Positions 41,414 through 49,010 of a stretch of 64,000 bases of DNA are shown here, piece after piece (the first letter of the stretch is position 1; each line of letters starts with the position of its first letter). The notes below the pieces were generated by a model. It ran no database searches. It worked only from the letters and a program-made list of their open reading frames with translations, and was not told the origin of the DNA. The translations under genes were made by a program, and so were the position numbers. Origin of the DNA: Rhizobium sp. WYJ-E13 (lineage in GTDB: Bacteria > Pseudomonadota > Alphaproteobacteria > Rhizobiales > Rhizobiaceae); NCBI RefSeq assembly GCF_018987265.1, contig NZ_CP076853.1, forward strand, positions 1,488,001 through 1,552,000, written 5' to 3'.

Positions 41414-41857
41414 ATGATCTATGTCGATGCGGATGCCTGCCCCGTCAAACCCGAAATCCTGAAAGTCGCTGAACGCCTCGGCATGGAAGTGACCTTCGTC
41501 GCCAATTCCGGCCTTCGCCCATCGCGCGATCCGATGGTGCGCAACGTCATCGTCTCCAACGCCTTCGACGCTGCCGACAATTGGATTGCCGATAATACCG
41601 GCCCGACAGATGTGGTCGTCACCGCCGATGTGCCGCTTGCAGTCCGCTGCGTCGCCAAGGGCTCCTTCGTGACAGGTCCGACAGGTCGCGTCTTTGACGA
41701 GACCAATATCGGCATGGCGAGCGCCATGCGCGATCTCGGCGCCCATCTGCGAGAGACCGGCGAGAGCAAGGGCTACAATGCGGCTTTCAGCCCCAAGGAT
41801 CGTTCGCGTTTCCTCGAAACCTTCGATCGTCTCTGCCGCCGCGCGAAGAACGCCTGA
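41414..41857 (+). CDS. YaiI/YqxD family protein (DUF188)
   Basis: 147 residues of the DUF188 family, a NYN/PIN-like fold of unknown function. Acidic residues at the start (IYVDADACPVKPEI) and in VVTADVPLA form the presumed metal site; KGSFVTGPTGRVFDETNIG is a conserved loop. Third gene of the frmA-elaA unit, ten bases behind elaA. AGGATATCGCC precedes the ATG. Confidence 0.93.
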   Translation: MIYVDADACPVKPEILKVAERLGMEVTFVANSGLRPSRDPMVRNVIVSNAFDAADNWIADNTGPTDVVVTADVPLAVRCVAKGSFVTGPTGRVFDETNIGMASAMRDLGAHLRETGESKGYNAAFSPKDRSRFLETFDRLCRRAKNA

Positions 41858-41903: not shown

Positions 41904-41932
41904 CTTGAAGTCAGCCGTTCCCTCGTCCATAT
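41904..41932 (+). promoter_or_regulatory. Promoter of the guanidine riboswitch and gdx
   Basis: CTTGAA, 17 bases, CCATAT; five of six and four or five of six positions match the rhizobial consensus. The expected start is about ten bases before the first riboswitch hairpin. Confidence 0.65.
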
Positions 41933-41941
41933 CGAATGTGA

Positions 41942-42001
41942 CGCAGACGACTGCGGCGCTCGGGTCTGCCCGGGTCGCAAAAGTCGCGGGGACGGCCTCG
42001 C
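41942..42001 (+). ncRNA. Guanidine-II (mini-ykkC) riboswitch
   Basis: Two hairpins with the diagnostic ACGR tetraloops: CGCAG-ACGA-CTGCG at 41942-41955 and GCGGGG-ACGG-CCTCGC (one G-U pair) at 41986-42001, 30 bases apart, followed after 9 bases by the GGAGAG ribosome binding site of an SMR-type exporter gene. Loop sequence, spacing and gene context all fit the class. It probably exposes the ribosome binding site when guanidinium is bound. Confidence 0.85.
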
Positions 42002-42020
42002 TCTTGATATGGAGAGTATG

Positions 42021-42335
42021 ATGGCCTGGTTTCTGCTTTTTCTCGCTGGCCTTTTTGAATGCGGTTGGGCAATCGGTCTGAAATATACCGATGGCTTCAC
42101 CCGTCCGATGCCGACGATCCTCACGGTCATTTCCATGGTGGTGAGCGTCATCCTGCTCGGTCTCGCCGTCAAGACTTTGCCGATCGGCACGGCTTACGCG
42201 ATCTGGACCGGCATCGGCACGGTCGGCACGGTGCTGCTCGGCGTCTGGCTTCTGGGGGACGCGGCAAGCGCCTCGCGCCTGATCTGCATAACGCTGATCG
42301 TCGCCGGCATTGCCGGCCTCAAGCTGACGGTCTGA
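42021..42335 (+). CDS. gdx: Guanidinium exporter (SMR family, SugE/Gdx)
   Basis: 104 residues, four membrane helices, small multidrug resistance family. AWFLLFLAGLFECGWAIGLKY contains the essential Glu (residue 13, in LFECGWA), and the WTGIGTVGTVLLGVW segment in helix 3 is typical of the Gdx rather than the EmrE subtype. It exchanges protons for guanidinium at the inner membrane. Start at ATG 42021, six bases after GGAG; ATGs at 42009 and 42018 are possible. Controlled by the riboswitch just upstream and ended by a clear terminator. Confidence 0.93.
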   Translation: MAWFLLFLAGLFECGWAIGLKYTDGFTRPMPTILTVISMVVSVILLGLAVKTLPIGTAYAIWTGIGTVGTVLLGVWLLGDAASASRLICITLIVAGIAGLKLTV

Positions 42336-42360: not shown

Positions 42361-42391
42361 AGGCTGCGGGCGATAAACCCGCAGCCTTTTT
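42361..42391 (+). terminator. Terminator of gdx
   Basis: AGGCTGCGGG and CCCGCAGCCT with a 7-base loop, then T5. Confidence 0.92.
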
Positions 42392-42393
42392 GC

Positions 42394-42451
42394 TAGAGCG
42401 CCGTGCGTCCATTTGGACGCACAAAGGACGCTCTACCTCTTTGAATCTACG
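42394..42451 (+). repeat. Dispersed palindromic repeat, family A, copy 2
   Basis: TAGAGCGCCG at the start, inner palindrome GCGTCC-att-TGGACGC, GGACGCTCTA at the end (42426-42435), then CCTCTTTGAATCTACG. Outer and inner arms match the copy at 17752-17849 in order and, in part, in sequence. It overlaps the last codons of the DoxX gene. Confidence 0.7.
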
Positions 42452-42842
42452 TGGTCGCGTTTCTGTTGTCGACGGACAACGCGCCGGCGCCGGCAAAGAA
42501 CAGGTACAGGAAGATGAAGCAGAACAGGATTGCGGCATCGCCCTGGTTGAGAGCCGGGAAGAAGCTGTGCGGCATATGCGCCATGAAATAGGCGATCGCC
42601 ATTTCACCCGCCAGCAGGAAGGCCACCGGCCGTGTCGCAAAGCCGATGAGGATGAGGATGCCGCCGAAGGTTTCCAGCAGTGCCGCAATCAGGAACAGAG
42701 TGGAAAGCGGGCCATCGCCCTGCGCGGCCGGGAAGCCGAAAAGCTTCATCGTGCCGTGTTCGATGAACAGAAGCGCAGTCATGATTCTGAGAGCGGCCAA
42801 ACCATAGGGGCGGTAGGCGGATAGACGCTCGAAAGTTGACAT
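42447..42842 (-). CDS. DoxX family membrane protein
   Basis: 131 residues with four hydrophobic helices. ALRIMTALLFIEHGTMKLFGFP is the DoxX starting pattern, and LLETFGGILILIGFATRPVAFLLAGEMA the helix 2-3 hairpin. DoxX/DoxD-like proteins are linked to redox or thiol chemistry at the membrane, but the function here is unknown. AAGGAGAGTCTTT precedes ATG 42842. The last codons run into the repeat at 42394-42451, which may have supplied part of the C terminus. Confidence 0.88.
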   Translation of the reverse strand: MSTFERLSAYRPYGLAALRIMTALLFIEHGTMKLFGFPAAQGDGPLSTLFLIAALLETFGGILILIGFATRPVAFLLAGEMAIAYFMAHMPHSFFPALNQGDAAILFCFIFLYLFFAGAGALSVDNRNATT

Positions 42843-42969
42843 AAAGACTCTCCTTAAGGGTGTGCTGCCGAGCGTTACCGCGTCTCTAACAGGGATTGAA
42901 GACACGTTTGCTGACAGGTGTTCACAACTTCGACAGTGGATAAACACCTGAAGAGCCTCTTTTATTCGA

Positions 42970-48839: not shown

Positions 48840-48852
48840 TGCCGCAACCTTG

Positions 48853-49010
48853 TTGGGAGAAGCCGGTACGCGATACCGGTGCCGAAGGAGCAACCGCCCC
48901 GGAAACTCTCAGGCAAAAGGACCACAAGGGGCAGACGGAACTCTGGAGAGAGGCGTTCTCGAAACGTCCGCCGAAGGGATAACAATCTCAGGCACAGGGA
49001 CAGAGGGGGC
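48853..49010 (+). ncRNA. Tandem glycine riboswitch
   Basis: Two successive aptamers. First: GCCGAAGGAGCAACCGCCCC, CTCTCAGGCAAAAGGAC and the closing ACTCTGGAGAG. Second: GTCCGCCGAAGGGATAACA, ATCTCAGGCACAGGGACAGAG. These are the conserved cores of the class. Located 80 bases before gcvT. An adjacent long hairpin with an internal terminator-like stem (49007-49051) is the probable expression platform. Confidence 0.95.

Follow-up and report, generated by a model that had tools for sequence, protein, structure and literature searches.

The gdx (sugE) locus of Rhizobium sp. WYJ-E13 belongs to a 6.9-Mb genome in three contigs and was analyzed within a 64,000-nt stretch of DNA, here called the window. 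It is flanked by a YaiI/YqxD-family gene and by an open frame convergent to gdx. Between a probable promoter and the Shine-Dalgarno (SD) sequence, the leader contains two hairpins with ACGR loops, P1 and P2, separated by a linker that is itself predicted to fold into a hairpin (LH) followed by a short joiner (Table 1). We took the start of gdx to be at the conserved MAWF (42021), which the end of P2 precedes by 19 nt; in-frame ATGs are also found at 42009 and 42018. A preliminary description of this DNA, made from its letters, had a ribosome binding site and gdx following the hairpins, and both were confirmed, as the GGAG core and the SugE-type gene.

Table 1. Features of the gdx locus, in positions of the window
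Feature	Position	Strand	Remarks
YaiI/YqxD-family gene	41414-41857		upstream neighbor of the gdx locus
−35 box TTGAAG, probable gdx promoter	41905..41910	+	conserved CTTGA motif
−10 box CATATC, probable	41928..41933	+	17 nt after −35; 8 nt before P1
P1 hairpin, CGCAG-ACGA-CTGCG	41942..41955	+	5 pairs; second pair from loop A-U ("AG-type")
Linker hairpin (LH)	41956..41978	+	abuts P1 directly; from covariation, fold energy, and arm test
Joiner AAAAGTC, LH to P2	41979..41985	+	7 nt; length near-constant in variants
P2 hairpin, GCGGGG-ACGG-CCTCGC	41986..42001	+	6 pairs, one G-U
Proposed anti-Shine-Dalgarno CCTCGCTCTT	41996..42005	+	overlaps P2 3′ arm; from motif count and ligand-free fold
Shine-Dalgarno GGAGAG	42011..42016	+	core GGAG, 42011-42014
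gdx/sugE, predicted SMR guanidinium exporter	42021..42335	+	104 aa; SugE equivalog and structure-chain matches
Terminator-like hairpin	42361..42391	+	10-11 pairs, then TTTT; read by eye
Open frame, convergent to gdx	42447-42947		downstream neighbor

The predicted protein passed the NCBIfam SugE equivalog model (129.1 bits; cutoff, 126) and, in the same profile comparison, scored below the cutoffs of the Qac- and EmrE-type models. When it was compared with solved structures, the top two chains were titled SMR-family multidrug resistance protein, the first being 6wk5_B (104 bits), which we take to be Gdx-Clo; EmrE chains reached 37 to 39 bits, and Glu at position 13 (E13) was aligned. Judged from these matches, the product appears to be of the Gdx subtype of the SMR family, closer to Gdx than to EmrE or Qac, and probably expels guanidinium. 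Gdx proteins are described as guanidinium/proton antiporters (PMC7695847). Among the relatives found, the closest named one by gdx protein was Rhizobium sp. BK418 (97% identical). As for the terminator proposed earlier for gdx, a hairpin (42361-42387) followed by TTTT can be read by eye, but the terminator scan reported the hairpin near these positions on the minus strand only; because of that orientation, the terminator may be bidirectional and also serve the convergent gene.

Both leader hairpins have an ACGR tetraloop and a G-C closing pair, as is characteristic of guanidine-II riboswitches, and their stems (five and six pairs, one G-U) and 30-nt linker proved on remeasurement to be exactly as first described. 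A search of both strands of the window returned no further pair of ACGR hairpins (stems of at least 5 pairs; loop starts 15 to 70 nt apart), and none of 100 dinucleotide-preserving shuffles of the window contained such a pair. Among 80 gdx relatives, collected by protein alone with their leaders disregarded, two ACGR hairpins (stems of at least 4 pairs, within 150 nt upstream) preceded gdx in 66 and at least one did so in 74; among shuffled leaders, two hairpins occurred on average in 0.04 of 80. We also aligned 34 leaders, in which P1 and P2 were almost invariant and therefore uninformative about their pairing; since these leaders had been picked for ACGR hairpins, loop identity in the alignment carries no weight, the unselected count being that from the 80 relatives. 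Some leaders depart from the pattern: gdx of L027 (R. tibeticum) and L032 (Rhizobium sp. BK399) lacks a two-hairpin leader, and L122 and L126 have an AG-type P1 without a second ACGR hairpin of at least 4 pairs.

The linker was compared in 118 of 145 gdx leaders, the other 27 being left out for having fewer than two qualifying hairpins or a linker already counted. We labeled as variants those leaders whose linker had an energy of −4 kcal/mol or lower and a length of at least 19 nt; this label drops only 2 of the 61 AG-type leaders with linkers that long. The minimum free energy (MFE) of the window's linker was equaled by 1 of 200 shuffles. Linkers more stable than 95% of their own shuffles were found in 49 of 65 AG-type leaders versus 1 of 53 ordinary leaders and, among AG-type linkers, by length in 33 of 40 (≥25 nt), 15 of 20 (20 to 24 nt), and 1 of 5 (shorter). 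Using fixed positions, we asked how the first five bases of the linker pair with the five preceding the 7-nt joiner: 48 of 59 distinct variant linkers paired at four or more positions, and the total beat all 2,000 re-dealings of arms among the variants, although both linker stability and this arm test depend in part on the variant label, because the label uses linker energy.

Covariation in the 34 aligned leaders points the same way for LH: both sides changed in 6 of its 8 pairs, and 87.6% of cells pair. The covariation score for the whole structure was 0.185, to which kinship of the sequences may still contribute, versus 0.098 (standard deviation, 0.008) for shuffled and at most 0.065 for slid versions. 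In the window's own clade, one LH pair of the alignment (columns 23-50) is out of register owing to a bulge. The geometry is also regular; LH follows P1 without a gap in 48 of 59 variants and after 1 nt in 10, and the joiner is 7 nt long in 44 and 6 to 8 nt in 57, across linkers of 19 to 41 nt.

The window's linker falls inside the range of 7 to 40 nt stated for the class (PMC7544219), so in length it is, as previously judged, long but allowed; in structure, however, it is a covarying third hairpin plus joiner rather than the flexible, poorly conserved linker expected of guanidine-II. It is for this reason that we treat the window's element as a variant rather than a plain member of the class. 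The alternative, that this is an ordinary guanidine-II riboswitch with a long linker as mere filler and a neutral LH, would agree with the stated linker range and with a P1, P2, and gdx that are as in the class, but it seems unlikely given the covariation of LH, the near-constant joiner, and the single stable linker among the 53 ordinary ones.

At its own cutoffs, Rfam reported only a glycine riboswitch and tRNA in the window (the former a single aptamer at 48843-48934 on the + strand, 63.9 bits). The covariance search that the preliminary description had proposed as a check of its guanidine-II assignment likewise fell short: at a permissive E value, RF01068 (mini-ykkC) matched 41958-42000 with 20.5 bits against a gathering cutoff of 32, in an alignment that treats LH as P1 and excludes the true P1. 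None of 37 variants (the window, 16 related leaders, and 20 from other genomes) was found at the Rfam cutoffs, compared with 18 of the 20 tested among the 53 ordinary leaders; Rfam also finds the short-linker AG-type leader L041 and the genome's own ordinary guanidine-II copy. We attribute the failure of the standard model to the variant architecture, in which a third hairpin, absent from the preliminary description, abuts P1 and fills the linker. Thus, the assignment to guanidine-II is upheld by the ACGR pairs of the relatives and by the ordinary leaders that pass Rfam, although the window itself lies below the cutoff and has the variant form. By its loops, stems, location, and gene, we consider the element a guanidine-II riboswitch, and its three-hairpin leader appears to be a new structural variant of that class. 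The open literature searched, at title and abstract level, contained no folded-linker form of guanidine-II; the papers on the original validation, the P. aeruginosa structure, and the 2007 discovery were outside its scope.

We propose that CCTCGCTCTT is an anti-SD element. GCTC, CTCC, or CTTCC occurs within or beside the P2 3′ arm in all 59 variants versus 11 of 53 ordinary leaders, a comparison that is independent of the variant label. The median duplex between the P2-arm region and the SD was −7.7 kcal/mol in variants versus −5.9 kcal/mol in ordinary leaders; pairing between linker and SD was about equal (−4.6 and −4.8 kcal/mol, respectively), and anti-SD-like motifs inside the linker were less common in variants (10 of 59) than in ordinary leaders (24 of 53). 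If pairing with the first codons is left out of account, the duplex between the SD and the P2 arm is weak in the window (−3.9 kcal/mol) and across its clade. One genus supplies four leaders that bear on how the element relates to LH: L120, L124, and L125 combine an ordinary P1 and an unfolded linker of 14 to 15 nt with a P2-side anti-SD element, which the fourth, L128, lacks. Because these three have the element without the linker hairpin, the two are not strictly coupled, and such leaders are possible intermediates.

In predicted ligand-free ensembles, P2 had a probability of less than 0.1 in most variants (46 of 57) and in most ordinary leaders (27 of 41). For the window this value was 0.0 (P1, 0.8), and the predicted fold is one long hairpin, with both arms of P2 paired around the SD and the first codons. 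Forcing P1 and P2 to form, at a median cost of 6.2 kcal/mol, changed SD accessibility by at least 0.1 upward in 27 variants and downward in none (n = 59); in the ordinary leaders used as a control (n = 53), it rose in 18 and fell in 11. In the window, the same forcing gave no rise in SD accessibility (0.21 to 0.17), owing to other predicted pairings. An ON direction of switching is therefore reasonably motivated by these folding predictions for the variant set, but only weakly for the window sequence.

The promoter noted in the preliminary description has a recurring counterpart: CTTGA-N16..18-CATAT lies ahead of P1 in 24 of 27 variant leaders (L009-L044 plus the window) and in 27 of 59 over the full set of variants, although a promoter scan with an E. 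coli-type consensus found none at TTGAAG/CATATC. The position of the −10 box predicts a transcript that would start close to P1. A GGCCGTTCCC-like stretch partly complementary to P2 lies within the promoter spacer, at 41913-41922 of the window and likewise in many other Rhizobium leaders; it would not be transcribed if the promoter assignment is right.

The promoter also bears on a different way of hiding the SD, by a P0 helix in which the 5′ flank pairs with the SD region and encloses all of the hairpins, as has been proposed for P. aeruginosa guanidine-II (PMC9561414). The MFE fold of 41905-42035 (−59 kcal/mol; z, −3.7) does have a 13-pair P0 helix, and the duplex between flank and SD in the window reaches −16.6 kcal/mol. 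With a 30-nt flank, pairing of −10 kcal/mol or stronger was found in 28 of 41 ordinary leaders and in 20 of 57 variants including the window, some of which may use P0. However, P0 pairing is weaker (−6.9 to −8.4 kcal/mol) in the closest relatives (L009, L010, L012, and L013), and the probable −10 box falls on the 5′ strand of P0, which is therefore unlikely to be transcribed. For these two reasons we set P0 aside as the main mechanism and kept it as a rival that we consider quite improbable; provided that transcription does not begin upstream of the start implied by the promoter, P0 in the window ranks, in our modeling, as a coincidence specific to this strain.

The ligand of the variant might instead be another guanidino compound, such as methylguanidine or a plant-derived analogue. 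Many of the named host organisms are plant-associated, which would suit such a ligand, as would the second pair of the variant P1, next to the loop, which is A-U where ordinary leaders have G-C. This reading is nevertheless very doubtful, because the variant shares its ACGR loops, closing G-C pair, and Gdx gene with the class and each loop contacts one guanidine in the solved structures (PMC5486947). Finally, that the hairpins serve only as ligand-free stabilizers of the gdx leader transcript, with which the failure of our literature search to turn up binding data on gdx leaders of Rhizobium would agree, is hardly credible, since 66 of 80 relatives have two hairpins with exact ACGR loops and a stabilizer would need no such loop bases.

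We searched for the variant with a custom covariance model (R1), whose search filters lose weak matches. Within the window's family, taken to be Rhizobiaceae from the named relatives, R1 matched 70 of 297 sampled genomes (E ≤ 0.01): 33 had three-hairpin variants, 28 had other two-hairpin forms, 4 were unassigned, and 5 (L146, L150, L156, L157, and L158) lacked gdx in the stretch inspected. The R1 bit score by itself fails to separate the variant from other forms. Of the 109 genera covered within the family, 11 had the variant; named carriers include Rhizobium species, Metarhizobium album, Sinorhizobium medicae, and Shinella kummerowiae. An order-wide search (397 genomes; E ≤ 1e-4) gave 20 matches, of which six, at 68 to 98 bits, were all in the window's family. 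The other 14 were weaker (33 to 41 bits), 3 of them in the family and 11 outside it; nine had two ACGR hairpins with linkers of 15 to 20 nt, and in four of the nine a small linker hairpin is predicted (−3.4 to −3.9 kcal/mol); the remaining five had only one hairpin at threshold. None of the 14 was a clear three-hairpin variant. No clear three-hairpin variant was found outside the family in these 397 genomes of the order, sampled thinly per family and with strict search filters, for which reasons we regard restriction to the family as likely only.

Many Mesorhizobium gdx leaders (L053, L054, L056-L059, L062, L065, L069, L071, L072, L074, and L075 are of this type) have P2 about 50 to 90 nt before the start codon, often with a foldable insert between P2 and the SD. 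These leaders thus deviate from the standard arrangement in another way than the three-hairpin variant does.

The variant shares with RF01068 the two G+C-rich ACGR hairpins just ahead of the ribosome site and the guanidine-related gene, and differs from it in the A-U second pair of P1, the third hairpin in the linker, the 7-nt joiner, the anti-SD element in or beside the P2 3′ arm, and scores below the cutoff in all 37 tested. The ordinary leaders within L042-L155 (Mesorhizobium, Afipia, Microvirga, and others) precede the same gene and have the same kind of loop, but their linkers (n = 53) are 14 to 23 nt long, with one of 32 nt, and mostly unstructured. The E. coli sugE riboswitch also controls sugE/gdx and has two ACGR hairpins, and its putative anti-SD is described as lying in the linker (PMC9094411), which in the variant is folded instead. 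With the P. aeruginosa riboswitch (PMC9561414) the variant would share translational control by hiding of the SD, as proposed here, and has in common a transporter gene downstream; the P0 described there uses the 5′ flank, whereas in the window this flank holds the probable −10 box, and the nearest relatives of the window show weak P0 pairing.

An ordinary guanidine-II element (40.4 bits; G000:C2:1031942-1031991, or 1501-1550 of L001) lies on the second contig of the genome. It overlaps the last part of an open frame that looks, by eye, like an ABC-transporter ATPase, and it directly precedes genes matching UAAP1, UAAP2, urea carboxylase, and allophanate hydrolase. Its gene neighborhood places this copy inside a urea/guanidine carboxylase-type operon; operons for guanidine carboxylase, carboxyguanidine deaminase, and allophanate hydrolase are reported to be under guanidine-I or guanidine-II riboswitches (PMC12186494). 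With both the exporter gene gdx and a carboxylase-type operon, the strain thus appears equipped to use and export guanidine and to do so with two different forms of guanidine-II.

The gdx leader has two ACGR hairpins, a covarying LH, a near-constant joiner, and an element beside P2 capable of pairing with the SD, and the gene that follows is a Gdx gene. We put at about 0.8 the probability that this leader is a three-hairpin guanidine-II riboswitch that turns on gdx translation, and we infer the switch itself, together with ligand binding, loop docking, and the role of LH. The variant would most likely be a translational ON switch. Without ligand, P1 and LH would form and P2 would not; the P2 3′ arm and the adjoining CUCUU would pair with the SD and the first codons, masking both. 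With guanidinium bound, the P1 ACGA and P2 ACGG loops would dock via their CG bases, and docking would hold P2 together so that its 3′ arm leaves the anti-SD hairpin and the ribosome site opens. LH would act as a rigid filler stacked beside P1, with the 7-nt joiner bridging the docked stems. This arrangement is suggested by the solved structures, in which the docked stems lie in line and a 14-nt linker in Gloeobacter spans 49 Å (PMC5486947). We lean toward regarding the variant as a distinct subclass of guanidine-II, carried by Rhizobium and its family and having a different expression platform, in which a rigid hairpin stacked on P1 replaces the flexible linker and an arm of P2 is the anti-SD, such that docking and release of the ribosome site would be one event.

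As a minimal riboswitch, guanidine-II has been studied intensively; its linker has been described as flexible, and the placement of its anti-SD has largely been modeled. A lineage with a folded linker and with the anti-SD seemingly in an aptamer arm provides a natural experiment on how docking is coupled to translation. To the guanidine-related genes of soil and nodule bacteria, the variant would add members overlooked at the Rfam cutoff, which is of interest since plants are reported to produce guanidine (PMC12186494).
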